Source of the DNA: a virus
Strand: one strand, 5' to 3'
Virus record (IMG/VR): IMGVR_UViG_3300015202_000041
Location: 1-27,354 of that record
Length of the DNA stretch: 27,354 bases
Part shown: in pieces, positions 5,676-27,066 of the stretch
Layout of the letters: every line of letters begins with the position of its first letter
How positions within the stretch are numbered: the first letter of the stretch is position 1
Translations under genes and position numbers: made by a program
Notes under the pieces: model-generated
What the model saw: only the letters and a program-made list of their open reading frames with translations
What the model was told of the DNA's origin: nothing
Databases searched by the model: none

Positions 5676-6950
5676 GTGAGCGATGTACATGCAAAGACGG
5701 GCTATTGGTATCCGATTTCAGAAGGGGAGGCTGATGCATTAGAAGAGCTTGACGATTTGTCATTCAGAACGTATCACGCTCTGCGGCGTAGAGTCGATTG
5801 GGAAACTATGCAACTGAAAGGTAAAGATAATTCTTGGGCCGCATTATTAAAAGCAGTTACTCCCGGCCGAAGGCAGGGGCTAGAAATCAAGAAGCCGACA
5901 TTAGCAAAAGTCAGAGGAGCTATAAAAAGGTTAGTGACAGATGGGTTAGTGATAAAGCTCAACAAAGATAAAGATGAGTACTTGTCTTTAATTTTACCAA
6001 GGGCAACTCATGTTGGGCAAAATAAACCTAACAGGAAGCTAACAGGGAAGATAACAGAGAACCTAACAGGGAACCTAACAGGGACAGAAGCATCGAAAAG
6101 CGTTGATTTATATGAAGATTTAAGGGGTGTGCTTTTAGAGCTTAACAGGGAAGTTAACATAGAAGCTAACATAGAAGTTTTTGAGAAGCTAACATGTAAT
6201 GAAGATATAAATATAAATACAAAAATAAATAAACAAAACGCGGGCGTGCATGCATGTGCGCTCATTGGGGCAAATGAAAAAGTTTTAGACGTGCGAGACA
6301 GCGAGACAGAGTCTACAGCACAGAACGACGAACACAGAGAAACGGGGGCAAAGACCCCTGCGCGATTCAGACAAGGGACGTACGTCGCAGACGAGAGCGA
6401 CACGGTGAGAAGCACAGCGGGCGATCGATTCCCGCACACCGGCAGCGGGGCGATTGACTCCCCGGGCAAGTCGACAGGGCTATCGCTGGTGTCTGGCAGC
6501 GGTATGCTCAGGGAATTGAATGGTGTGGAGGGGGTAGGTTTAGATCCTCGCATCGTAGAGTTGCGAAATCATTTTGGTCGAGACCGCGCGAAAATGGGTA
6601 GACCTAACTCGCTCGGCAAGCGGACGGGCGCAGCGGCAATTTTGTACGGAGGAGCTGACGAGTATTTCAGAAGCTGGTTGTCTTGCGGTCTTACAGTTGC
6701 AGAAATTGTGAGAATTTGCGATGACAACGACAAGATAGCGCAGAGAAACTGGTATACCGTTTCGTTTTACGATGTGCCGGTTACAGAGAGAATCGCGGAC
6801 AAAAAAAACCCGCATGTTGCTAGCAAGGCAACAGCGGGCAATGGGTTTGTTCAGTCGTCACAGACGAGTGTAAGAGGTAAGTATGAACGTAAAGTTAACA
6901 AATATCAATCGCGTTTCAGTCAAGCAGGAAATGACAGTGAAAACTTCTGA
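5676..6950 (+). CDS. Replication initiator, lambda O-like in organisation
   Basis: A 424-residue protein starting at GTG (5676) with AAAGG 7 nt upstream. Residues 1 to about 110 look like a winged-helix DNA-binding domain (GYWYPISEGEADALEELDDL, then a helix KPTLAKVRGAIKRLVTDGLV and wing LNKDKDEYLSLIL). Residues about 118 to 180 are encoded by iterons (LTGK, LTGN units). Residues about 190 to 290 are low-complexity and polar, and the C-terminal part (about 290-424) has a compact YGGADEYFRSWLSCGLTVAE region that may contact the helicase loader. The next gene is a DnaC-like loader overlapping by 68 nt, the O-P arrangement of lambdoid phages. The initiator role is inferred from fold style, iterons and neighbour; no direct sequence family was certain. 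Confidence 0.72.
   Translation: MSDVHAKTGYWYPISEGEADALEELDDLSFRTYHALRRRVDWETMQLKGKDNSWAALLKAVTPGRRQGLEIKKPTLAKVRGAIKRLVTDGLVIKLNKDKDEYLSLILPRATHVGQNKPNRKLTGKITENLTGNLTGTEASKSVDLYEDLRGVLLELNREVNIEANIEVFEKLTCNEDININTKINKQNAGVHACALIGANEKVLDVRDSETESTAQNDEHRETGAKTPARFRQGTYVADESDTVRSTAGDRFPHTGSGAIDSPGKSTGLSLVSGSGMLRELNGVEGVGLDPRIVELRNHFGRDRAKMGRPNSLGKRTGAAAILYGGADEYFRSWLSCGLTVAEIVRICDDNDKIAQRNWYTVSFYDVPVTERIADKKNPHVASKATAGNGFVQSSQTSVRGKYERKVNKYQSRFSQAGNDSENF
6028..6238 (+). other. Candidate replication origin: iterons plus AT-rich tract
   Basis: Inside the initiator gene a 12-bp unit, consensus CTAACAGGGAAN, starts (at its TAACA) at 6029, 6040, 6052, 6064 and 6076, then again at 6143, 6155 and 6167, with a last half-match at 6190. 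Spacing is 11 to 12 bp within each cluster, about one helical turn. The repeats are followed at 6202..6238 by an almost pure A/T tract rich in ATAAA. Iterons inside the initiator gene followed by an AT-rich unwinding region is the layout of the lambda origin. Confidence 0.7.
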
Positions 6951-13329: not shown

Positions 13330-15306
13330 ATGGCCGATTTAGCGATTAATCAATTAAGCAATTATAGCGGCCCTCTTTTACAGACAAACGTGATTCCCGT
13401 TGTGCAGCTCCCTGGAGCGAGCCCAATTGCGGCTAGAAAAGCCCCACTTTCTGCCATTCTTTCAGATATAGTACAAAAAACAAACAATGCGACCGGATGG
13501 TCTCTTTCCGGTGGAGCAACAAACAAAACGTTAACGTTTCTTGAAAATTCAACAATAAATCAAAATCTATCTTCAGCCGCTTCGGTTGTTTTTGCTGGGT
13601 TAAACGCTACTTCACCCTCAAATGCAAATGCGAGAATAGAATTAAGCTATGACTTAGCAAATGTATGCGGTTTAGTTCAGTCAAACTATAATGGAGCAGG
13701 ATTAACAGAGCTTAAGCTTAACCCGTTAGGAAATTCTGTCAGCGTAAATCTTGCGGCGAATGTTGGTGCGCAGTCTCCTCTGCATGTAGAGGCAGATATG
13801 TTTTTGTCAAATACGACAACACCGCCGATACCCACTCTAGGCGGGAAATTGTACTCAAAGCTAACGGCTGGTAACTCCGACTTATATTACTTCGATTCAT
13901 CAGGGATAGAGCATCAAATAACAAGCACAGCATCGACAGTGGGTACTTGGGAGATAGCTCCCTCATCAACTTATTTAAGGCCTATTCCAGCGTTAGGAAT
14001 GACGGGCATTCTTTTGTATAATGCGGGAGCTTCATTTAACACTAAAATATCTTACGAGACAAACGGAATTTATTATGATTGTTCTGACATAAATCAAATA
14101 CACCGATTTTGGCAGCGCTTACAAGCGGAATCAAGTATAAAAATATCAAATTCAGGGACATTGACGCGCGGAAAAGGTTTGTCGTTATTTACAGGGAGTG
14201 ATGATTATAAAATTGGGTTCGATGATGTTGGCGGATCTGTAGGTTACATACGATATAATGTAGATACAGCTGATTCAATTCACGGTCACATTTTTTCAGC
14301 GGGGGCTCTAGGTTCAGCTACAACACTTGCAACATTGAGCGGCCTTGGCCAATTATCTGTAATAAAAAATGATGGATGGCTGGCTGGGGTTTTTGGCGGG
14401 GCGGCAACAAATAAAGCGGTGCTCGGAAGCTTGACAGGCGAGGCAACAATTGCAGCTCAAAATAGTAGCTTAACTGGCTTCGTAGATTTAACAATTCAAA
14501 ATTCAGCAGCAAATCTAATTATAGCAGCAGGCAATACCACGTTTAACGGAACTATATCATCATCGGCAGCCGGAGCCGCCTCTCTTATTGTTTCTGCTAA
14601 TCCTTTAGTAGTTAATAGCCAGAATGCTGGGTCTGGGGCCGTAAACTGGATAGCTTCAGGTTTTGGTGGACAGGCTGGCGACAAAGTCGTTACGGGGAAT
14701 CTGTATGGCCGAGCGACAATTGGGGCACATACGCAAACATTTTCTGCGTGGAAAAATCTGCATATTCAACCAACCCTCGCGGCAAATGTTGGTATATGTC
14801 TAGACCCGACAACTCAATCTGCAAATGCAAATCTTCACGCATTTGGGTCGACAATTTTAGGATGTCCTTCGACTGTAATGCCTGATGCGAATATGTACGG
14901 AAGTCAAATATCTCCTTCCGTAAATCAAACAACAAATGTTTTATCTTTCAAAGTTAAAAAAAGCGATGGCACGGTTGTTAGCTTTCCGATGGGATTATCA
15001 GTAAGGTCAATAACCGCAAACACAACAAATTTAGCTTCAGATGACATTGTATGTATTGATACAACGCTTGGCGCTGTCAATTTCACAGTTGACGTTTCTA
15101 TCCTTCGTCGACCTTTAGCTATTCTATTCTTTCAGGGTGCGGGGGCATGTTCATTCCAAGCTTTGGGGGGGCAATTTATTCATGGATTCTCAACCCCTAT
15201 TTCGCTCGGTGCAGTTTACTCAACTGCAACAATCTTGCCAACAACTTCATCAATCAATGGATTTATTTCTTCGTCAGCAACATATCAAACAGTCGGCACA
15301 ATATGA
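13330..15306 (+). CDS. Tail-fibre or receptor-binding-like structural protein
   Basis: A 658-residue protein. The N-terminal ADLAINQLSNYSGPLLQTNV continues VIPVVQLPGASPIAARKAPL, the I-x-x-L-(10-15)-IPVV-(10-15)-L pattern of many phage fibre attachment heads. The rest is Ala/Ser/Thr/Asn/Gly rich, low in lysine and predicted beta. Residues 350-391 and 440-481 are internal repeats (WLAGVFGG and WIASGFGG, then LTGEATIAAQ and LYGRATIGAH), period 90. The C-terminal 120 residues form another beta region. Probably trimeric and involved in host recognition (inference). Similar in length to P22 tailspike (666 aa), but no parallel beta-helix homology was recognised. It sits before the terminase genes. 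Confidence 0.65.
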   Translation: MADLAINQLSNYSGPLLQTNVIPVVQLPGASPIAARKAPLSAILSDIVQKTNNATGWSLSGGATNKTLTFLENSTINQNLSSAASVVFAGLNATSPSNANARIELSYDLANVCGLVQSNYNGAGLTELKLNPLGNSVSVNLAANVGAQSPLHVEADMFLSNTTTPPIPTLGGKLYSKLTAGNSDLYYFDSSGIEHQITSTASTVGTWEIAPSSTYLRPIPALGMTGILLYNAGASFNTKISYETNGIYYDCSDINQIHRFWQRLQAESSIKISNSGTLTRGKGLSLFTGSDDYKIGFDDVGGSVGYIRYNVDTADSIHGHIFSAGALGSATTLATLSGLGQLSVIKNDGWLAGVFGGAATNKAVLGSLTGEATIAAQNSSLTGFVDLTIQNSAANLIIAAGNTTFNGTISSSAAGAASLIVSANPLVVNSQNAGSGAVNWIASGFGGQAGDKVVTGNLYGRATIGAHTQTFSAWKNLHIQPTLAANVGICLDPTTQSANANLHAFGSTILGCPSTVMPDANMYGSQISPSVNQTTNVLSFKVKKSDGTVVSFPMGLSVRSITANTTNLASDDIVCIDTTLGAVNFTVDVSILRRPLAILFFQGAGACSFQALGGQFIHGFSTPISLGAVYSTATILPTTSSINGFISSSATYQTVGTI

Positions 15307-15817: not shown

Positions 15818-16237
15818 ATGGCGCGAAATACCACTAAAGATATAACAGCTACGCGTAAAAATTTCGCTGATGTATGCGAAAAAATATCGTGCAGCTTTAT
15901 TACAGTTAAAGACGCTATCACTCTTGCCGGCAGCAAAATCCCATACTGGGAATTTAGAAAGCTTGCAAGAGAGAGCGAAGACTTCAGAAAAATGTATTTC
16001 AATGCGAAGGAAGACCAAACGCATATCGGTGACGACATCATGACCGACATGATCAATGAGTCTATAGCAGGTCATCGTGACGCAAAAGATGCCGCACATA
16101 TTTGCAATATGGCAAAGTGGAAGATGGAAAAGTTAAATCCCAGATACTTCGGCGATAAGCAAGCAATGGTACTTGAAGAGTTAATGGTAAAAGTTGCAGC
16201 ATTGGCAGATAAGGAAATGAATGGCGACAATCGCTGA
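15818..16237 (+). CDS. terS: Terminase small subunit
   Basis: A 139-residue protein. The N-terminus (KNFADVCEKISCSFITVKDA) looks like a helix-turn-helix for pac-site recognition, followed by IPYWEFRKLARESEDFRKMY and a helical oligomerisation part (MINESIAGHRDAKDAAHICN and AKWKMEKLNPRYFGDKQAMV). The W-K-x-x-K-x-x-P-x-x-F/Y-G-D-K pattern is common in small terminases. It overlaps the large-subunit gene by 17 nt. P22 gp3 has 162 residues. Confidence 0.85.
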   Translation: MARNTTKDITATRKNFADVCEKISCSFITVKDAITLAGSKIPYWEFRKLARESEDFRKMYFNAKEDQTHIGDDIMTDMINESIAGHRDAKDAAHICNMAKWKMEKLNPRYFGDKQAMVLEELMVKVAALADKEMNGDNR

Positions 16238-17762
16238 GATTAAGAAGCTATATAAAAAATACGAAAAATCATTGCTTGATAAAAAAGTAATTGATATTTC
16301 AATAAAGGATGGCTGCACTATTATTCACGGTCGGCACGATATTATTTATAAACCGTCCAAAACGGGAGAGCTCGTAAATAATTGCAAAGATTTTGTTATC
16401 GCGACAGTGGGGCCTGTTAGGTCTGGGAAATCGACGCTAAAAATAAATAAAATTATGAGGCATACGTTAGAGATGCCGAAGTGTCACGATGGAGTTCGGC
16501 GCGCATGTTGGGCGATCATACGAAATACATACGGGGAGCTTGAGACGACAGTATTAAGAACGTGGATGACTTGGTTCGGAAAATTGGGAAATGTATATTT
16601 AAGAATGAATGCGCCCATTTATTATAAAGCATGCTTTAGAGATAAATATGGCCCTATTGAGCTTGAAGTATATTTTATGGCTTTAGACAGAGCGGAAGAT
16701 GTTAAAAAGCTTGATTCATTGGAGCTCACAGGCGCGTATGGCAATGAAATTCGTTATGTTCCTGAAATTGTAGTCGACAGACTTCAGCAGCGTGTAGGGC
16801 AATTTCCAAAAAAAGATATGGTTGTCGGTGGTGATTTTGATGGTGTTATTCTTCTTGATACCAACCCCCCTTCCACAAAGCACTGGTTCTATGAAAAATT
16901 TGAAAAAAAGAAAACGCAAGGATATCGAATATTTAAACAGCCGCCGGGATTATTAAAAATGGAAGATGGAACCTACATTACCAACCCGGAGGCAGATAAC
17001 CTTGAAAATCTCAATCCTTCGAATTATTACGAGCAGGCGGCTATAGGCCAAAGCGAAGAACATATTAACGTTATGCTTATGGGGAATTACGGAATTTCGG
17101 GTGACGGGAAAGCCGTCTATCATGAATACAATGATGATAGACACTCAACTTCCGGCCTTGAATATATGCCAGATGTTCCTGTTTTTATTGGGATAGATTA
17201 TCAAACCATTCCCAGCGTGATTTTTTCTCAAATAGCCCCAAACGGCCAAATCCAATGTTTAAAAGAGTTAATAGCGACAGAGCAGGGATGGAATTCTTTT
17301 GTTGATATTCATTTGATGCCGTATATAAGCCGAAATATCCCGAATCATAAAATTTACGCAACAGATGACCCGAGCGGAAATAATAAAGTAGCAACTACAG
17401 CAACAAGTTGCAGAATGTATCTGGCGACCAAAGGCGTTCATGCTCAGCCGGCCTATTCAAACTATATAGGCCCAAGAATGGAAGCCGTGAGGTCTGTTCT
17501 GAGAGACAGCGTCGACGGGAAAACGCCAAGATTTATTATTGACAGAGACGGCTGTCCGACCCTTCGAGAAGGGTTTATCAGCGGATATAAATTTAAAGAA
17601 ATAAAAACTGAAAATGGAAAAGGCTATGACGATGAGCCCGTAAAGAATTTATTTGCCGACATTCATGACGCATGTCAATACAACGTGATGGGGATGGTTG
17701 GAAAGCCCATAAAGAAATCAGATTACAAAATGAACTTAGGCGAGGTGGGCGAATGGAACTAA
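16221..17762 (+). CDS. terL: Terminase large subunit (packaging ATPase/nuclease)
   Basis: A 513-residue protein. Walker A is GPVRSGKST (about 64-72). The Walker B area is LELTGAYGNEI, followed by the coupling segment LLDTNPPSTKHWF. The C-terminal RNase H-like nuclease has IGIDYQT (Asp326), ATDDPSG and NLFADIHDACQY as acidic sites. It drives DNA into the prohead and cuts the concatemer. Start ATG 16221 has AAGGAAA upstream. P22 gp2 has 499 residues, a close match in size. Residue Tyr in GIDYQT replaces the more usual Gly in D-x-G. Confidence 0.95.
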   Translation: MATIAEIKKLYKKYEKSLLDKKVIDISIKDGCTIIHGRHDIIYKPSKTGELVNNCKDFVIATVGPVRSGKSTLKINKIMRHTLEMPKCHDGVRRACWAIIRNTYGELETTVLRTWMTWFGKLGNVYLRMNAPIYYKACFRDKYGPIELEVYFMALDRAEDVKKLDSLELTGAYGNEIRYVPEIVVDRLQQRVGQFPKKDMVVGGDFDGVILLDTNPPSTKHWFYEKFEKKKTQGYRIFKQPPGLLKMEDGTYITNPEADNLENLNPSNYYEQAAIGQSEEHINVMLMGNYGISGDGKAVYHEYNDDRHSTSGLEYMPDVPVFIGIDYQTIPSVIFSQIAPNGQIQCLKELIATEQGWNSFVDIHLMPYISRNIPNHKIYATDDPSGNNKVATTATSCRMYLATKGVHAQPAYSNYIGPRMEAVRSVLRDSVDGKTPRFIIDRDGCPTLREGFISGYKFKEIKTENGKGYDDEPVKNLFADIHDACQYNVMGMVGKPIKKSDYKMNLGEVGEWN

Positions 17763-19909
17763 ACGAAGATTTTGTCGGTAAAGACGAAAAAAATGAATCT
17801 GACGATGACATTATCCAGGAATTCAAAAAGAGAGCCTCGCGGTCGTATGATTTTCAATCAAAGAATTTTGCTAGCTATAAATTCGATACTGAGTTCCTAT
17901 GGGTAAATCAGTGGGACAACAAGGACCAGAAATCATTTAAACGATATAACAAAAAAGCATTGGAAGCTCCGAAGTTAGATGCCTACGCTAGAAACATCAT
18001 GGGAGAGCTTAGGCAGAACAGGCCCGACCTGGAGGTGGGTCGCGTTTTCGATGATGCTCCTGATGTTCTTGATGACCAATTCTCTGAAAGCATAGATAAA
18101 TCTGTAAACCTAAATCAAATGATTGTCAGGTCAATTACAGACACTCCCGAAGCTGAAATAGCAAAAGATGTGGCCGCAGAATGCGCCATGTCTGGCGGGT
18201 TTGGCGTTTTAAAAGTGATAGCAGATTACGAAAATGCAAACAGCTTTAACCAAACATTGTTTATGAAGCCCGCAAAAGACCCCCTAAAGTTTGGGTTTGA
18301 CCCAAGCGCTCAAGAAGACTCTAAGCGCGACGGCATGTATGCGTTTGAGGTCGTTAAAATTTCAAAAGAAGAATTTAGACAACGATACCCAGGGAAATCA
18401 TACCCAAAAGTAGAGGCAATACCAGGAATGGATGATAACTGGGTAGCTGATCACTCTTTGCATATTGCAATCTATCAAAGAAAGAAATTTTTCAAAAAGA
18501 AACTATACCAGATGCAGGATGGTTCAGTTCTTACGAAGCAGCAATACAAGGAAATGATTTTATCAAAAAAGGAAGAGCTGCAACTATCCGGCGTGCCTGA
18601 TGAGCAAATAAACATGCTTCTAAAAGGAACCCAAGGCGGAATATTACCTATTGCAGAAAGGGAAGCTGACGATTACATAATTGAAGTATTCAAGATAGCG
18701 GGAAATGAGATTTTAGAAAAAACAGAATGGGTGTCAAAATGGTTTGGATATATTTATGTGCCATTAAACCCTCATATTATCGATGGTCAAGAGCTGACTC
18801 GGTCTTTCTTTAAGTCTGCTCAAAATATACAGCAGTCCATAAACTATACATTTACACAGTTAATGTATCTGATGAAGACAACCCAAAACACAAGATTTAT
18901 GGTAGCAAAAGAGCAGCTATCAGTTTTAGAGGCGAGTGACTTAGAGGCGTGGAAGAATCCAGAAAGAGTCCGGGGGGCCCTCGTTTACGGAAATGTCCCT
19001 GGAATTCTGCCTCCCATTGTTGTTGAACCTCAGCCGATCAATCAATCGATTGTTAACATGTACCAAATGCTAAATGCGGATTTGCAGACAACGCTAGGTC
19101 TTTATGACTCATTCAAAGGAGATACCAGCGGCGATATGTCTCGATTCACTTCTGGGGCGGGGATATCGCAAAGCAATAAATCAACGTTCATTATTCACAG
19201 TGCATTAAACAGAGGTCTTGCTCAAGCTGGCGAAGTTATCCTTTCCGCCATCCCTAAAGTATTTAACACTCGAAGAATATTAAACTTAAAAAATGATGAT
19301 GGAAGAACGTCGCCATTCTTAATTAACGACGGAAGTAATGACATAGAAGAAGGAAACTATTATATCAAAATTGACGCGGCAGTTTCTTTTGAAAAGCAAC
19401 GTCAAGAAGCTTCAGCAAGAATGGTCCAGTTCTTAAGCATGAACCCCCAGTCATATAACTTGCTGGCCGATATGGCGGCAAAAACAATTCTCATGGGAAC
19501 TGATGCTCGCATAGCCGCAAGCCGTCTAAAAACCATCATCCCCCCCGACGTGATTTCTGCGGGAGAAGGAAAGTCGCCTGAGCCTAAACAGCCAGAAGGA
19601 CCGCCGCCAGAAATGCAGATAATGATGCAGCAAATGGAAAATGAGAAAATGCGCACGCAATCCATGCTTGAGATAGAAAACAAGAAGCTGCAAGCTAAGA
19701 CCTTGGAAATGGAAGCTAAGATTATGCAAGCGAAAATGGATGACGAGTTAAAACGCGAGCAAATGAATAACGATAATTCTAAATCGTTAATGGAGCTACA
19801 GTTCAAATATGACGAACTTGGAACGCAAGCAAGTCTCAAGCAATCGTCACATATGGACAAATTAGTAAACCAAACCTTAAGACAATCAGACAAACTATTC
19901 GGAGCCTAA
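17753..19909 (+). CDS. Portal protein, P22 type
   Basis: A 718-residue protein; P22 gp1 has 725. Start at ATG 17753 (GAGGTGGGCGA upstream) overlapping the terminase end. N-terminal LWVNQWDNKDQKSFKRYNKK and AYARNIMGELRQNRPDLEVG, then MSGGFGVLKVIADYENANSF and LKFGFDPSAQEDSKRDGMYA, are typical of P22-like portals. A C-terminal coiled coil (about 600-690) is rich in M, Q, E and K, with MEMKIMQ-like heptads, and may make the barrel. It forms the dodecameric DNA channel and terminase dock. Confidence 0.93.
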   Translation: MELNEDFVGKDEKNESDDDIIQEFKKRASRSYDFQSKNFASYKFDTEFLWVNQWDNKDQKSFKRYNKKALEAPKLDAYARNIMGELRQNRPDLEVGRVFDDAPDVLDDQFSESIDKSVNLNQMIVRSITDTPEAEIAKDVAAECAMSGGFGVLKVIADYENANSFNQTLFMKPAKDPLKFGFDPSAQEDSKRDGMYAFEVVKISKEEFRQRYPGKSYPKVEAIPGMDDNWVADHSLHIAIYQRKKFFKKKLYQMQDGSVLTKQQYKEMILSKKEELQLSGVPDEQINMLLKGTQGGILPIAEREADDYIIEVFKIAGNEILEKTEWVSKWFGYIYVPLNPHIIDGQELTRSFFKSAQNIQQSINYTFTQLMYLMKTTQNTRFMVAKEQLSVLEASDLEAWKNPERVRGALVYGNVPGILPPIVVEPQPINQSIVNMYQMLNADLQTTLGLYDSFKGDTSGDMSRFTSGAGISQSNKSTFIIHSALNRGLAQAGEVILSAIPKVFNTRRILNLKNDDGRTSPFLINDGSNDIEEGNYYIKIDAAVSFEKQRQEASARMVQFLSMNPQSYNLLADMAAKTILMGTDARIAASRLKTIIPPDVISAGEGKSPEPKQPEGPPPEMQIMMQQMENEKMRTQSMLEIENKKLQAKTLEMEAKIMQAKMDDELKREQMNNDNSKSLMELQFKYDELGTQASLKQSSHMDKLVNQTLRQSDKLFGA

Positions 19910-19912
19910 TAT

Positions 19913-20761
19913 ATGCAAGAGCTAGAACAGATGAATGACGTTATTGACGAAGTGATGGCAGAGCCGGAAATATCAGAAATACCCGAAGCATTTGAGGGGA
20001 CTTACCAAGAGAGCGATATTCAAGAACCTGATATCGCATCAACCGAAGAAAAGGAACCCGACAACTCAGACCTTAGATTTAAACAAGCGGTCGAAGAGAA
20101 GGTCAACAAGCGAATAGCAAGAGAAAGAAGACGAAGCTCTGAACAATTAAGCGCCGTCAATCAACAATTACTTGAAATTAGAGCACAAATAGCTGATAAT
20201 TACAGTCACGTTAGTTCAGCTCCTCCCCAAAATGGCGAGGCCGCCTCTTATGGCGGCAGTATAGATGAAATGGCAGCAGCCTTTCTCAAGGCGCAGCAGA
20301 TAGCCCAACAGCAACAAGTTGAGCAGCAGCATTTTGAGACGCGGCAGCAGCAGCAACATCTCTACAACACACAGGACGCTGAACTTGAGCAACGGTTCAA
20401 TGAAAACTACGACGATATGAGGGACGAACATCCTGATTTCGAAAACGTAGTCCTTCAGCCAGGCATTATGACTCAATCGATGCTAGAAGCCTTAAAACGG
20501 ACTTCTTCACCGGCTCAGACCATATATCGCCTAGCAAAAACTCAAAAAGCTGAATTACAAAGGATTGCTTCACTGTCTAATCCTATCGATCAAGCCCTTG
20601 AGTTCACCAAACTTAATTTATCCGTGTCAAACAATCAACAGGCCCGAAAACCAATCTCCCCTACTCCTGCGCCTATTCGTCAGGAAAAGCCGAGCGGCTC
20701 TACGCGTCCTGTTTCCTCTGACACCATCGATTTTATGAGAAAAACTCTCGCAGGTAGGTAG
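19913..20761 (+). CDS. Scaffolding protein
   Basis: A 282-residue protein with an acidic N-terminus (MAEPEISEIPEAFEG), a basic-helical segment KVNKRIARERRRSSEQLSAV, a glutamine-rich coiled coil (QQIAQQQQVEQQHFETRQQQ), an acidic middle and a basic C-terminus. Length and position between portal and coat fit P22 gp8 (303 aa). It guides coat assembly and exits before packaging. CGGAG lies upstream of ATG. Its stop is 7 nt before a hairpin that covers the coat start. Confidence 0.85.
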   Translation: MQELEQMNDVIDEVMAEPEISEIPEAFEGTYQESDIQEPDIASTEEKEPDNSDLRFKQAVEEKVNKRIARERRRSSEQLSAVNQQLLEIRAQIADNYSHVSSAPPQNGEAASYGGSIDEMAAAFLKAQQIAQQQQVEQQHFETRQQQQHLYNTQDAELEQRFNENYDDMRDEHPDFENVVLQPGIMTQSMLEALKRTSSPAQTIYRLAKTQKAELQRIASLSNPIDQALEFTKLNLSVSNNQQARKPISPTPAPIRQEKPSGSTRPVSSDTIDFMRKTLAGR

Positions 20762-20767
20762 ACCGAT

Positions 20768-20807
20768 ATTTCGGATGCCTCCTGAGATTCTTTGAGGCAT
20801 CCGAAAT
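20768..20807 (+). promoter_or_regulatory. Perfect hairpin burying the coat gene ribosome site and start
   Basis: Arms 20768..20781 and 20794..20807 pair over 14 bp with no mismatch, around a 12-nt loop. The right arm holds GAGG and the first two bases of the ATG at 20806. No T-run follows, so it is not an intrinsic terminator. Opening it is needed for a ribosome to start the coat gene, unless ribosomes finishing the scaffold gene melt it. Confidence 0.75.
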
Positions 20808-22047
20808 GAGTACCAACACCCTTAAAACTACACAATACGTATCAGACATGTCCCTCGCTTTGTTTATGAACAAGCTGGGGTTTCTTGAAAACGCAAACAT
20901 GGCAATTAACGACATGTTTACGAAGGAAAAGTATGCTGCAGGTCAAAGCATCGACATTCGCTTGCCATATAACTTTACCGTCGGTACTGGCGCTGCAATT
21001 ACCCCTCAAAATCTAATCGACCGCACCGTCAGATTAACCGTTGAGAAGCAATATAACGCAGCGATTGAATTTTCCGCATTTGAATACACTTTAAACATTC
21101 GCGACGATAAAGTGGTTTTTGACCGCTACATCGCTCCAATGTTAATCAATTTAGCGGAAGCTGCTGAAAACTTAGCTATTAGCAAGTTATTAGCATCCAA
21201 CATAATTGTTGGAACTCCGGGTGTGCGAATCAATACAACCGACACATTAAACATCGCAAAATCAACGCTTCGCCAATTAGGCGTACCAACCGATGATTTG
21301 TGTTTGGTTATTGACCCGTTGACCGGGGCAGCTATCGAAAACTCATTGCCCGGCAAATTTGTTCCCACCATTGGCGAAGAAATCATTCAGCGCAATTATC
21401 AAGGCAAATTCTTCGGAATGAAGTATTACCAATCGCCTCTTCTGCAAACTCATGTAGCAGGCGTCGGTGACGGTACTAATACAACTTCATTCGCAGGATT
21501 TTTAGCGGCTGGTCAGATTAACGCAAACGTTAGTTCCGGGGATACTCAGTTAGTCATTAAAGGCCTAACAAACGGAACTGTGCCATTCCTCCAAGGCGAC
21601 ATTATACAAATGGGTGTAACGCAGAGCGTAAATCCAGTTAGCCGAGTCGCAACGGGTCTTCCGATGACATTCGTCGCCGTGGCTGACGCTACGGTAGTGT
21701 CTGGTGGTTTATCTACCGTTCAGATTTCACCCGCTGTGATTTCTGACAATACAAGCCCTTATCAAAACGTGAGTGCTCCAATTTTGGCGAATGAATTTTT
21801 GTTCTTAGCTAAAACTCACCGAGTAGGTTACGTGTTCGCGCCAGACTTCTTGTATGTCGCAATGCCTCCTTTAGCTGCTTTAAATCGCGCAACCGTAGAA
21901 AGCCATACGTCGAAATCGAAGACGGGGATTTCTCTGCGCGTATCAATGGGTGCTGATATCCGCTCTGGGACAGACATTGACCGAGCCGATATCTTGATGG
22001 GAGCTCTTTGTAATCCTCAGTTCGGCGTACGACTTGTAGGTGCATAA
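20806..22047 (+). CDS. Major capsid (coat) protein, P22 gp5 type
   Basis: A 413-residue protein; P22 gp5 has 430. It begins MSTNTLKTTQYVSDMSLALF and has the P22-coat layout: an N-arm, an E-loop area with SIDIRLPYNFTVGTGAAITP, spine and P-domain, a beta-rich insertion around residues 225-345 (VSSGDTQLVIKGLTNGTVPF), and a C-terminal part with GISLRVSMGADIRSGTDIDR. Matches the P22 coat family (PF11651). It forms the icosahedral head. The start lies in the hairpin described separately. A strong terminator follows the stop. Confidence 0.93.
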   Translation: MSTNTLKTTQYVSDMSLALFMNKLGFLENANMAINDMFTKEKYAAGQSIDIRLPYNFTVGTGAAITPQNLIDRTVRLTVEKQYNAAIEFSAFEYTLNIRDDKVVFDRYIAPMLINLAEAAENLAISKLLASNIIVGTPGVRINTTDTLNIAKSTLRQLGVPTDDLCLVIDPLTGAAIENSLPGKFVPTIGEEIIQRNYQGKFFGMKYYQSPLLQTHVAGVGDGTNTTSFAGFLAAGQINANVSSGDTQLVIKGLTNGTVPFLQGDIIQMGVTQSVNPVSRVATGLPMTFVAVADATVVSGGLSTVQISPAVISDNTSPYQNVSAPILANEFLFLAKTHRVGYVFAPDFLYVAMPPLAALNRATVESHTSKSKTGISLRVSMGADIRSGTDIDRADILMGALCNPQFGVRLVGA

Positions 22048-22060
22048 AGGTAGTTGATTT

Positions 22061-22091
22061 AGAGGGGGGATGCTCTCCCCTCTTATTTTTT
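22061..22091 (+). terminator. Rho-independent terminator after the coat gene
   Basis: AGAGGGG (22061..22067) pairs with CCCCTCT (22077..22083), followed by TATTTTTT. It lies 13 nt after the coat stop. Placed inside the late operon, it should reduce transcription of downstream tail genes relative to coat. Confidence 0.85.
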
Positions 22092-22448: not shown

Positions 22449-23177
22449 ATGTTGTCCGTGACAGTAGAAGAAATAATTAGAGGATCGTTCTTCTTGTCCG
22501 GCGCTTGGGACGAAACATCTACGCCGTCAGATGGTCAAACATCTATGGCTATCAGCCTTTTGAATGACACTCTGCATTCCTCTCCCGGGGGTGCGGATGT
22601 GCCATTTTATACGACTAAAGAATGGAAATTAATAGCCGGGAAAGAAACGTACACTTTCGGTACTCTTCCTGACGTTGATTTTCAATCCAACAGAATAATT
22701 AGCATTCAATTCGCGGGAATTAAATATCAGAACCTTTATAGACCGATTAAAGTCTTTACTGCGTTTGATCAGTTCGAAAGATATCGCGTTTTAAATGGGA
22801 GCGGCAGTTTATTCACGGGATGGCCCTTCGCTGTCTACCTTGAGAACAATGTCGGAGTTTCTTCCATTACTTTTTATCCGTCGCCGCAAGAAGCGTTTAC
22901 AGCAAGCTTAAAATGTAAGGTTGATTTAGATGATTTTCAACCTCAAAAAGTCATTTTAAATGTACCTCCTTTTTATTACAAATACTTGCGATATCAACTT
23001 GCAAGAGAACTTTGCATGGTTTTCAACAGAACATCTAATTGGGATGAATTGAAAGAATCAGAATATCAAAAACTTTTGAAGGAAATGAGAGCGGGAATAG
23101 CGCTAGATCTTACGATTCATACTACAGATGACGCGGCAAACCGCGAATCATTGTTTGCGATTTATGACGGCCTCTAA
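22449..23177 (+). CDS. Head-completion/adaptor protein, P22 gp4-like
   Basis: A 242-residue protein beginning MLSVTVEEIIRGSFFLSGAW, with TPSDGQTSMAISLLNDTLHS and LPDVDFQSNRIISIQF, and a helical C-terminus with FYYKYLRYQLARELCMVFNR. This matches the P22 tail accessory factor gp4 family (PF11650), although P22 gp4 is 166 residues, so this is the longer form found in many relatives. It attaches to the portal and carries gp10. AAGAGG lies upstream. The C-terminus is translated to 23177, overlapping the gp10-like start. Confidence 0.87.
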   Translation: MLSVTVEEIIRGSFFLSGAWDETSTPSDGQTSMAISLLNDTLHSSPGGADVPFYTTKEWKLIAGKETYTFGTLPDVDFQSNRIISIQFAGIKYQNLYRPIKVFTAFDQFERYRVLNGSGSLFTGWPFAVYLENNVGVSSITFYPSPQEAFTASLKCKVDLDDFQPQKVILNVPPFYYKYLRYQLARELCMVFNRTSNWDELKESEYQKLLKEMRAGIALDLTIHTTDDAANRESLFAIYDGL

Positions 23178-24696
23178 AGAGATAGTTGCAGAATTAAACA
23201 TTGTTGGGAGCGACAAGCAAAGTCGATTCTCTCGCTTTGACGGTCAAAGAACTATAAATTTATACGAAGAGTTTGATGAGGAAGGGAAAAAAGGAAAAGC
23301 CCTTTTTCCTGTTGCCGGTAGGAAGCTTGTGAAGTCTCTTGTGGGGGCTGCAAATTCCAGAGACACATATTACGATTCATACAGAAACGTAACCGACAAC
23401 ACGTATTACGTTTATTGGGCGGCCTCTGAACGGGTTTTCAGAATAAACACAGATTCGTTTGTGGTTACTCAAATTGGGACGTTAACGACATCGGTAGGTC
23501 ATGTTGGGATTGCTTCCAACATTAACGGACAGATTATTTTTGTGGATGGATCTAAAGGCTGGCTATATAAAAATTCAGACAATACATTTACAGATATGTC
23601 TGTTTACGATGGGTTTCCAACAAGCCCAAATGACGTTGTTTTTCAAGATGGGTTTTTTCTTGTTTCGCAAGGAGAAAGCAATTTCTTTTATAGAAACATA
23701 AACCCAAATGATGGTGTTGTATGGAGAGGTTCAGATGGCAAGGTTCAAAGAGAGGCGCTGACTACTCGCGCAGACAACATTATTGCTCTTTCAGAATTAA
23801 ACCGTCGCGTTTTTGTGTTCGGAAATAGCGTTATAGAAACCTGGTATAACGCCGGGAGCCCTGGATTTGGGTTTAGAAGAGATAATAATTTGCTGATTCA
23901 GTACGGGTGTGACTCTGCTGACAGCATTGCAAATGATTACGGCTATTTGATTTGGCTTTCATCTCCGTCAAACGGAGCGCCAAAAATAATGATGACGGAC
24001 GGAACAAGACCTCAAAGAATCAGCACCTCTGATTTAGAGAGAATAATTTCAAAGTATCGGTCTCCAGACGATGCCGTCGGAATGATTTACTCAATTAGCG
24101 GTCATATTTTTTATGAAATTAGTTTCACTGCGGCGCAGGCAACATGGATTTATAACGTAGACACGGGGAGATGGTCTGAGGCAGAAGATTTACCTGGAAC
24201 GCGAAGATTAATGCAAGTGCACCAATATTTTGGGCCAAAAGCCACGGGGGGGAAACATTACATTGGCGCTTATAATAACGGAAATATTTACGAACTGTCT
24301 GATGACTATTACGACAATGACGGAGTTCCGTTCAGAAAGATGCGTGTAACAGCGCCATTTTCTGAGCCCAGCGGAAGAAAAATAACCATCAATGAAATTG
24401 AAATATTTTGTTTGCCAGGAGAGGCGTTTAATTATACATCTCAGGCAATCATCGCGCCTGGAGCGGCTAAAACTGATTTTGATCCAGTTGTATTTTTAAA
24501 AGTTTCAAAAGATGGCGGGAAAACATTCCAAGTTGTCAGGAAAGAATCAACCGGAGAAATAGGAAAGTATCGTCAGCGCGCAATATTCAGAATGCTTGGA
24601 ACAGGAAGAGATTTTGTTTTTCAGATTGAAAATTACAACAGGACTCCATTTGCGATTATTGGGGCATCAATTAAATACGTGGTTCAGCCTTCATAG
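23164..24696 (+). CDS. Packaged-DNA stabilisation protein, P22 gp10-like
   Basis: A 510-residue protein; P22 gp10 has 472. Start ATG 23164 inside the end of the gp4-like gene, giving MTASKEIVAELNIVGSDKQS; the longer frame from 23128 is not needed. It reads as a beta-propeller with repeated GxxWxYxV-like blades (TYYVYWAASERVFRINTDSF, GWLYKNSDNTFTDMSVYDGF, ATWIYNVDTGRWSEAEDLPG) and a C-terminal beta domain. This fits PF11134. It plugs the tail so packaged DNA does not leak. Confidence 0.9.
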   Translation: MTASKEIVAELNIVGSDKQSRFSRFDGQRTINLYEEFDEEGKKGKALFPVAGRKLVKSLVGAANSRDTYYDSYRNVTDNTYYVYWAASERVFRINTDSFVVTQIGTLTTSVGHVGIASNINGQIIFVDGSKGWLYKNSDNTFTDMSVYDGFPTSPNDVVFQDGFFLVSQGESNFFYRNINPNDGVVWRGSDGKVQREALTTRADNIIALSELNRRVFVFGNSVIETWYNAGSPGFGFRRDNNLLIQYGCDSADSIANDYGYLIWLSSPSNGAPKIMMTDGTRPQRISTSDLERIISKYRSPDDAVGMIYSISGHIFYEISFTAAQATWIYNVDTGRWSEAEDLPGTRRLMQVHQYFGPKATGGKHYIGAYNNGNIYELSDDYYDNDGVPFRKMRVTAPFSEPSGRKITINEIEIFCLPGEAFNYTSQAIIAPGAAKTDFDPVVFLKVSKDGGKTFQVVRKESTGEIGKYRQRAIFRMLGTGRDFVFQIENYNRTPFAIIGASIKYVVQPS

Positions 24697-25004: not shown

Positions 25005-25955
25005 ATGTTCGGCGAACTTACTAATTTATTTTCAGGCGGCCAAGAAAAAGGTTCCAAATCTTTGATGGGAAACATTGAAAAGGGAATGGCCGAGCGTCAG
25101 CGCTATACAACGGAAGCAAATGACGCTTTGAAGCAATACGGTCAGCAAGGAATTGATGCCAGAAAGCAATACGGTCAGCAAGGAATTGATGCTTTAAAGC
25201 AATATGGTCAACAAGGAATTGATGCGTTTAGGCAGTATGGTCAACAAGCAAACCAAGGCCTTCAACCATACCAAACTTCGGGTCAAGGAGAAATAAACCC
25301 TTACATGCAAAATTATCAGCGCATGTTAGACCCAAATAAATTTATCAACGAACAAATGTCAGGCTACATGGAAAGCCCATGGGCAAAAATGCAAATGGCA
25401 AAGGGGCAAAATTCAATTCAAAACGCAGCTTCTGCTGGCGGCGGCTTAGGCGGAACAAATTACATGGCGGATATGGGTGATTATGCTAGAAACATTACAG
25501 CAGCAGATCAACAAAACTATTTAAACAATGCAATGAATGTTTGGAATGGCGGATTAGGCCGACAAGGCGAAATGGTCGGAATGGGTCATAACGCTTCTGG
25601 ACAAATGGGCAAAAACATGATGAACACGGGGAACAACATAGGTAACGCGTACAACAGCATGGGGCAAGGAGTCTCTGGAAATTATGGGAGCATGGGGCAA
25701 GGAATTGCAGGAGGTTATAACAGCATGGGGCAAGGAATAGCTGGGAATTATATTGGCCTAGGCAATGGAATGGCTGAGGATTTTGGAAACCGAGGTCAGG
25801 CGGAAATGGAAAACCAAAAATCGAAGGCGATGGGATGGCAACAAATGATCGGAATGGCTACGGGAGCCTTGACGGGAGGATTTGGAGGTCCTCAAGGTTT
25901 TGGGGGGAGTTTTAGTGGAATGGACGCGATGCGCGGAGCGAGGGGAGGAAGATAA
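25005..25955 (+). CDS. Probable DNA-ejection protein with two 11-residue repeat arrays
   Basis: A 316-residue protein. Residues 43-86 hold four units of KQYGQQGIDA(L/R/F), and residues 216-259 hold four units of YNSMGQGIAGN type. Both have an 11-residue (33-bp) period. The remainder is Met/Gln/Gly/Asn rich, with a helical middle (SGYMESPWAKMQMAKGQNSI). GGAGAA lies upstream of ATG. Position after gp10-like genes matches the P22 ejection-protein genes (gp7, gp20, gp16). 11-residue helical repeats pack as right-handed coiled coils, plausible for a tube-forming protein. Confidence 0.6.
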   Translation: MFGELTNLFSGGQEKGSKSLMGNIEKGMAERQRYTTEANDALKQYGQQGIDARKQYGQQGIDALKQYGQQGIDAFRQYGQQANQGLQPYQTSGQGEINPYMQNYQRMLDPNKFINEQMSGYMESPWAKMQMAKGQNSIQNAASAGGGLGGTNYMADMGDYARNITAADQQNYLNNAMNVWNGGLGRQGEMVGMGHNASGQMGKNMMNTGNNIGNAYNSMGQGVSGNYGSMGQGIAGGYNSMGQGIAGNYIGLGNGMAEDFGNRGQAEMENQKSKAMGWQQMIGMATGALTGGFGGPQGFGGSFSGMDAMRGARGGR

Positions 25956-25956
25956 T

Positions 25957-27066
25957 ATGAATATTCCTAAAACTGATTATGGCGCTGGTCTTTATAGTGC
26001 TCTTCAAGGATTTGAAAGGCAAAGAGCAGAAAACGAGGGCCTTGATATTCAAAATAAACTAAAGCCACAAAGGCTTGGCCTGGATGTTGCTCGTCATCAA
26101 TTAAACGAGCAGCGTTATTCTCCAGACCAATTAGAGGCAATGAGGCAATATAGGTTATCCGCTGCTAATAATTTGAAAAACACTTGGCGACATTTGACAC
26201 CGCTAGGAAAGGCGCAGATGGAAGAAAACAATGTGCTGGGTGGATTGCTTCCCAATGGTCAAAATTTTGGACAAGCTCCTCAAAATATTAATCAAATACC
26301 TATGCAGATATCGCAAGAGCAAGCGAATTCTATGGCGCAAGACCCCTCATTGGCAAATGCCTTTACAAGAGGCTATCCTCAACAGCCTATGGGTCAACAG
26401 CAACTTCCGGGACCCACGCAACAAAATGCAATGAACCAAGATCAAATGGGCAGACAGAAGGTTGCTGGCGGTAGATATGCTAATTACATCAATAAGCAAG
26501 TAACAGATCCAGAAGACAGGTCTCGTTCAAAAGCCGGCGTTAATTTAGAAATAACTGTAGGAGACTTGAAAAATAACTTTTCTCGATTTGCCGACGAATA
26601 TACAGGCCTTGGAGGCGCGTTAAACAAAGGAGCAGATGCCTTAACTTCAATGTTAACCGGCAAAGATTCTCCCGCTCTTATAGCTCAAGAAAAATTTAAC
26701 TCGGCGAGACATATAGCGGCTGACCAGCTAAGAGGATATTTTAAAGGGAGCATTACAAACCCGGCTATGCAGCGACTTGAAAAGTTACTAATGGACGATA
26801 ATTTATGGTCCACATCCCCCGGCCGCGCAAAATCTAGACTAGAACAGGCAATTAATCTTGTCGAAAAAGAATTGCCAACATATCAAAATACACATCAAGG
26901 CCCAGATGGATATATGCCGGGGGCCACTACCGGGAATATTGAGAAAAAACCGCTTACTAAATTATTTACCGGCGGAGAAATAAAAGATTTCATGAAGCGA
27001 AACCCAAAATTAACGAGAGAGCAAGCGATAACATCTCTTGAAAGATTCTCACCTCCGGGGAAATAG
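25957..27066 (+). CDS. Probable DNA-ejection protein, second gene
   Basis: A 369-residue protein. Start ATG 25957 has AGGAAG 6 nt upstream; the frame from 25882 lies within the previous gene. N-terminal helical part (YSALQGFERQRAENEGLDIQ, NEQRYSPDQLEAMRQYRLSA), a Gln/Pro/Met-rich linker (PQQPMGQQQLPGPTQQNAMN) and a helical C-terminal half (GLGGALNKGADALTSMLTGK). Composition and position fit an internal head protein ejected with DNA, like P22 gp20. Homology not recognised directly. Confidence 0.55.
   Translation: MNIPKTDYGAGLYSALQGFERQRAENEGLDIQNKLKPQRLGLDVARHQLNEQRYSPDQLEAMRQYRLSAANNLKNTWRHLTPLGKAQMEENNVLGGLLPNGQNFGQAPQNINQIPMQISQEQANSMAQDPSLANAFTRGYPQQPMGQQQLPGPTQQNAMNQDQMGRQKVAGGRYANYINKQVTDPEDRSRSKAGVNLEITVGDLKNNFSRFADEYTGLGGALNKGADALTSMLTGKDSPALIAQEKFNSARHIAADQLRGYFKGSITNPAMQRLEKLLMDDNLWSTSPGRAKSRLEQAINLVEKELPTYQNTHQGPDGYMPGATTGNIEKKPLTKLFTGGEIKDFMKRNPKLTREQAITSLERFSPPGK

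Follow-up and report, generated by a model that had tools for sequence, protein, structure and literature searches.

A standing question about double-stranded DNA phages is what fixes the proportion of coat to scaffold protein. RNA phages are well known to control the starts of structural genes through RNA, and in MS2 an early metastable fold keeps the start of the maturation gene open until the inhibitory fold forms. Attenuators, both the translational ones of the erm genes and those of the trp type, are built from mutually exclusive stems, one of which hides the ribosome binding site (RBS), and the position of a ribosome on segment 1 chooses between them. Hairpins over the RBS also set the timing of genes e, soc, 49 and I-TevI of phage T4 (PMC3014915, PMC2988022). 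The targets of CsrA/RsmA present ANGGAN in a hexaloop, with the Shine-Dalgarno sequence (SD) in the stem and a second site 10-63 nt away (PMC7652899, PMC7366521), and on psl RsmA acts by stabilising the SD:anti-SD hairpin (PMC7652899). RNA control of a P22-like coat gene is, as far as our literature search reached, undescribed.

Here we analysed the junction between the scaffold and coat genes of an uncultured P22-like phage, in a window of 27,354 nucleotides (the whole stretch of DNA under analysis, a virus contig of IMG/VR). The two genes lie 44 nt apart within a P22-type head module with the following features:

16221-17762: TerL gene
17672-19909: portal gene
19913..20761, + strand: scaffold gene, 282 aa, stop TAG at 20759-20761 (PHROG phrog_8865, head scaffolding protein, E 8.8e-16)
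20806..22047, + strand: coat (major capsid) gene, 413 aa, ATG start (PF11651 P22_CoatProtein, 72 bits; phrog_283)
22061..22083, + strand: intrinsic-terminator-like hairpin directly 3' of the coat gene, a 10-bp stem followed by TATTTTTT (terminator scan)
23128-24696: Hc3

The coat start call is supported by the alignment of the ATG at 20806 with the MSNTLLT-type N-termini of homologs, and the coat message probably ends at the strong terminator-like hairpin.

A predicted hairpin over the coat start

The start of the coat gene lies in an exact inverted repeat, which we call the sequestor:

20768..20781, + strand: sequestor 5' arm, ATTTCGGATGCCTC, whose CCTC pairs with the SD GAGG (exact inverted repeat)
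20782..20793, + strand: sequestor loop, CTGAGATTCTTT, 12 nt (repeat search and fold)
20794..20807, + strand: sequestor 3' arm, GAGGCATCCGAAAT, holding the coat SD GAGG and the AT of the ATG (exact inverted repeat and fold)

An initial annotation of this DNA had described a 14-bp perfect hairpin after the scaffold stop, enclosing the GAGG and the start codon, and our analysis confirmed it, although the range assigned to it (20762-20810) proved a few bases too wide. The arms are complementary at 14 of 14 positions, which is beyond chance: among 60 first-order Markov sequences of the window's length, the longest perfect arm reached 13 in two and 14 in none. The stem begins six unpaired bases 3' of the scaffold stop TAG. 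Since RNAfold closes it with an extra U-G wobble (20767-20808), the entire AUG (20806-20808) is covered, and the complete fold consists of a 15-bp stem, a small internal loop and three further pairs. Its predicted free energy is -24 to -30 kcal/mol. The 101-nt fold around it reaches -30 kcal/mol (z -4.5), a stability equalled in none of 200 shuffles, and of the window's + strand 60-mers, sampled every 5 nt, none is more stable than the one at 20756.

The SD (20794-20797, 8 nt 5' of the ATG) has a predicted unpaired probability below 0.01 at 37 C; SD and AUG are thus predicted to be stably paired, as in an RBS-sequestering structure, and the initiation site to be occluded. Opening the RBS would cost 11.1 kcal/mol, the highest value among the 19 gene starts of the window that were examined; the range of homologs includes it, their median being 8.4 and their maximum 19.5, with the largest costs in GC-rich phages. 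In prediction, therefore, a non-random hairpin closes the coat start.

Several other identities for this hairpin were considered and rejected. It is not an intrinsic terminator, as the initial annotation had also concluded, since it has no T-run and its site is absent from the terminator scan. An RNA thermometer is contradicted by an SD that is predicted to be still paired at 75 C. A repeated or mobile DNA element is equally at odds with the data: there is no second copy of the palindrome in the 27,354-base record and none with 12-nt arms in viral_contigs, and the eight perfect palindromes found in genome_contigs with 11-nt arms belong to unrelated bacteria and have different loops and flanks. 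A leader peptide MPPEIL* (20775-20795; six codons inside the stem, with a UGA that overlaps the coat SD) could hand ribosomes to coat, and a -1 shift could join scaffold to coat in a frame that is open from 20758 to 20808; no signal supports either. No Rfam family matched the window above its gathering score.

The sequestor resembles the RBS hairpins of T4 late genes (e, soc, 49 and I-TevI) and of mobE of Aeh1 in holding the SD and/or AUG in a stable stem before a late or timed gene. It differs from those of T4 in that a T4 late promoter inside the stem gives an open transcript, whereas no such promoter is visible in the window. Further differences are that the gene concerned is the major capsid gene, and that the 5' arm can also pair with part of the preceding ORF.

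A second, mutually exclusive hairpin

When the RBS was held open in a constrained fold, the freed 5' arm paired with the last bases of the scaffold gene (20748-20760), forming a hairpin that we call the antisequestor. The elements of the two alternative structures are:

20748..20787, + strand: antisequestor hairpin, overlapping the final scaffold codons and the stop; -19.6 kcal/mol; 15 pairs (20748-49/20786-87, 20751-54/20781-84, 20756-60/20776-80, 20763-66/20771-74)
20748..20760, + strand: segment 1, the final scaffold codons and the UA of UAG, partner of segment 2 in the antisequestor (constrained fold)
20763-20787, + strand: segment 2, which includes the sequestor 5' arm 20768-20781
20794-20807, + strand: segment 3, the coat SD and AUG (the sequestor 3' arm)

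None of 200 dinucleotide shuffles was as stable as the antisequestor (z -4.0). Its stability was reached in 8 of 1000 cases when shuffling was confined to the 24 bases that precede the 5' arm, and by 9 of 3037 other 24-mers of the window; the significance is therefore moderate (p about 0.003-0.01), for a structure noticed after folding and without prior prediction. It is because of segment 1 that opening the coat RBS costs no more than 11.1 kcal/mol.

The sequestor and the antisequestor overlap at 20768-20787 and are predicted to be mutually exclusive, giving the pair of competing hairpins that characterizes an attenuator. In equilibrium folds calculated for each length of the growing transcript, the antisequestor is dominant for 3' ends at 20784-20802 and the sequestor from 20804 on. 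The barrier from antisequestor to sequestor was estimated at ~12 kcal/mol with a zipper model and at 16.6 kcal/mol on a direct path (findpath); at prefactors of 1e7-1e6 per s, the barrier of ~12 kcal/mol corresponds to about 30 s to 5 min.

These models lead us to favour, tentatively and knowing that it could well be wrong, a two-state attenuator-like leader in which scaffold translation closes coat. The sequestor would be a cis-acting RNA lock on the coat RBS and one half of a leader with two exclusive states, 1:2 (antisequestor, coat site open) and 2:3 (sequestor, coat site shut). On nascent or poorly translated RNA, 1:2 would form first and be kinetically trapped, leaving coat translatable. 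The scaffold stop codon lies within the antisequestor, so a ribosome finishing scaffold must break it; reading the final scaffold codons and the stop, it would melt 1:2 and let the more stable 2:3 form. Scaffold translation is thus predicted to close coat, because it would destroy the antisequestor, on which the open state of the coat site depends. Coat output would then be limited by scaffold translation, possibly balancing the two proteins. We infer that the junction is regulated, that both hairpins exist in vivo, that the trap is sufficiently long-lived to matter and that control runs in this direction.

Further considerations speak against such a switch. Coat is needed in bulk, and closing it upon scaffold translation requires another source of open mRNA; promoter-like sites in this region, among them a site within the scaffold gene at 20172-20200, are no commoner than in shuffles. 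The hairpins found in relatives (see below), moreover, support the principle and not the structure of the window, since they differ from it in sequence, size and loop.

With the erm and trp-type attenuators, the window shares segments that are predicted to pair in mutually exclusive ways, the RBS being hidden in one of them. Unlike theirs, its segment 1 belongs to the last codons of a structural gene and not to a leader peptide, and the ribosome is predicted to close, not open, the next gene, with no known stalling signal or ligand. The likeness to the kinetic trap of MS2 is in a predicted early metastable fold that leaves the coat start open; the differences are that the window belongs to a double-stranded DNA phage, that the metastable stem uses upstream coding sequence, and that the timing is an estimate.

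The scaffold-coat junction in relatives

No close homolog of the window was found in viral_contigs, genome_contigs or the phage collection, and neither the coat, portal and TerL queries of viral_contigs nor the coat query of genome_contigs gave a useful close relative; there is consequently no covariation support for the sequestor or the antisequestor. Named phages were reached only through coats at 23-29% identity (tblastn), and the scaffold-coat gaps of these distant phages are mostly 6-29 nt. A nearer clade was obtained from a TerL alignment, which led to three coats at ~30%, and from these by a scan with a coat alignment. Its coats are 30-33% identical to that of the window and its gaps span 29-128 nt. 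The window joins this clade in the tree with support 99/91 and on a long branch, for which reason its placement is provisional. As separate observations, Xanthomonas phage PBR31 (L017) has an intrinsic-terminator-like hairpin (GACCCCGCCAAGTGCGGGGTTTTG) between scaffold and coat, and the annotation of MW202674.1 (L021, 843-2358) divides the P22 coat into two ORFs separated by a small one, possibly an inserted element or an assembly break.

The absence of the stem from homologs had been named in the initial annotation as grounds for abandoning its proposal. Taken literally, the stem is absent: a perfect stem of at least 9 bp reaching the SD occurs in none of the distinct homologous junctions (73 from the distant named phages and 64 from the nearer clade). 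Yet about half of the closest relatives have a shorter, different hairpin on the SD, and the covariation that the annotation had proposed to look for is present in these hairpins of their own:

about -85 to -10 before the coat ATG (loci L195-L274, L115 and L275-L300): covarying leader with an ANGGAN hexaloop hairpin on the coat SD, often with a second one upstream

An ANGGAN hexaloop on a stem of 6-7 bp, whose 3' arm shares bases with the coat SD (TGGAG), is present in 28 of the 64 distinct clade junctions; other junctions of the clade have weaker or different hairpins. An ANGGAN hairpin further upstream is present in 16 of the 64, in 15 cases with an AAGGAY loop ~48 nt before the first. Mononucleotide shuffles give an expectation of 0.05 of 64, the frequency elsewhere in the same loci is 0.003 per equal-size window, and none of the 73 distinct junctions of distant named phages has an ANGGAN hairpin on the SD. 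Both sides have changed in 7 of the 16 pairs of the leader (0 of 500 shuffles), and the SD stem, taken by itself, is 100% paired and has changes on both sides of two pairs (0 of 500 shuffles on the covariation score), shuffle counts that overstate the significance because the clade sequences are related. The comparison thus supports the presence of a covarying RNA structure at the coat start of many among the closest relatives known. Searching all of viral_contigs for the SD-hairpin pattern returned 26 stretches (many from contigs of loci already counted), all 26 a few bases 5' of the same coat protein start, with the ATG 28-32 nt from the first base of the hairpin. Rfam gave no matches in eight relatives. 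We also observed that in leaders of the L220-L248 type (e.g. L232), at about -80 to -47 before the coat ATG, the 5' strand of the upstream hairpin (AAGGGTTTC) has two partners, GAAACCC and a second AAACCCTT; both are kept with covariation, and another alternative pairing is possible.

These leaders look like candidate CsrA/RsmA operators on the major capsid gene. As in the leaders of the RsmE-hcnA, RsmA-psl and glgC systems (PMC7652899), the SD forms the 3' arm of an ANGGAN hexaloop hairpin, and the second hairpin, where present, lies within the 10-63 nt that a CsrA dimer bridges. The CsrA targets in the relatives are putative, and differ from the known systems in that a csrA gene was found neither in the window nor in 20 relatives; a search for prophage hosts of the relatives in 398 genomes of one phylum returned only other clades at 27-31%. 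The window departs further from this architecture. Its scaffold-coat gap contains no ANGGA and its hairpin no hexaloop, and the covariance model of the relatives gave only chance-level matches on the window, none of them at the junction. What it shares with the clade is the gene junction, the target (the coat SD), a longer gap and structured RNA. Its hairpin is therefore a functional analogue at most, and not a member of the element of its relatives.

Since hairpins with covariation lie on the coat SD of the nearest relatives, regulation by RNA structure at this junction, as the initial annotation had proposed, is plausible, and its interpretation as a whole is partly supported. Taken together, the window and its relatives suggest that P22-like phages may control the output of shell protein through RNA structure.

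Alternative readings of the window's hairpin

P22 scaffold limits its own synthesis, and the window's stem stands at the same place as the ANGGAN hexaloop hairpins on the coat SD of the relatives, whose second hairpin in 16 of 64 junctions recalls CsrA/RsmA targets. Both facts would suit a static translational operator, bound or opened by a protein (scaffold, coat or a host RNA-binding protein), with the antisequestor being incidental. We consider this unlikely, given that the gap has no ANGGA and is passed over by the relatives' covariance model, that no CsrA is encoded in the window, and that a 14-bp stem far exceeds the needs of known operators recognized through their loop. Classical translational coupling, the idea of the initial annotation, has ribosomes that end scaffold melting the stem so that coat can start. 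A stop codon only 6 nt before the stem favours it, and a stop-to-start distance of 44 nt may allow some reinitiation. We modelled it by constrained folding, excluding from pairing all mRNA as far as the ribosome's leading edge, which we take to be at ~20771 when UAG is in the A site (toeprint convention). Such a terminating ribosome frees 4 of the 14 pairs, the outer A-U ones, and the 10-bp core keeps the SD shut, the opening of the RBS still costing 16-18 kcal/mol. The cost drops to ~6 kcal/mol only once the edge is at 20777 and to ~1 at 20796, for which the ribosome must read through the UAG as far as the in-frame UGA (20783-20785); only such read-through would open the stem. Coupling by plain melting is for this reason unsupported, and the predicted sign of the effect is the reverse of that proposed in the annotation. 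In a designed coupling element, furthermore, coupling is best at -1 to 5 nt from stop to start and drops with distance (PMC11602170), and we regard this mechanism as rather improbable here.

A processing site of the RNase III type, or a stabiliser of mRNA ends between the scaffold and coat messages, would agree with the 15-bp stem, small internal loop and three pairs, which resemble a substrate of a double-stranded RNase, and with the terminator hairpin at 22061-22083 that closes the coat message. It is very unlikely in our view, as cleavage of the 3' arm would detach the coat SD, destroy it or keep it paired to the 5' arm, and as such a stem is kept in no relative. The palindrome may instead be a recent product of mutation with no selected role, a template switch having copied the ribosome site GAGGCATCCGAAAT in inverted orientation. 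Perfect arms with no visible compensatory change would be expected from this, as would the lack of other copies in the record and in viral_contigs, and the gap of 44 nt compares with 6-29 nt in most distant phages. However, the gaps of the nearest relatives are also long and many of them structured, a closed coat gene should be strongly deleterious unless relieved, and the overlapping second stable hairpin is left unexplained; we judge this origin quite improbable. Finally, a timing gate like those known for T4 would keep long transcripts silent for coat and allow a late transcript, starting inside the stem and lacking the 5' arm, to be read. It appears highly improbable, since a scan limited to sigma-70-like promoters found none with a start in 20774-20795 (the best had 7 of 12 matches) and none is listed nearby.

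The two-state leader thus makes the window one testable switch, and the relatives offer a candidate operator, supported by covariation, placed specifically before the capsid gene and in a form recognized by CsrA/RsmA. Such an operator would tie capsid production to a global regulator of the host or to a phage-encoded protein recognizing that motif. A wider scheme would join an inverse-coupling kinetic switch in the window, with coat synthesis confined to messages that are free of scaffold translation, to CsrA-type operators in the relatives, the RNAs at P22-like junctions having been re-invented between lineages and tuning the coat:scaffold ratio; in this full form we think it doubtful.

Elsewhere in the window, the ORFs at 5676-6950 (424 aa), 13330-15306 (658 aa) and 25882-27066 (394 aa) have no PHROG match, and the first two have no Pfam match either. 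Among named phages, TerL (16221-17762) is most similar to that of a Pelagibacter phage (36%) and those of other podoviruses, while portal and coat are P22-like; judged by these similarities, the head module is a mosaic.
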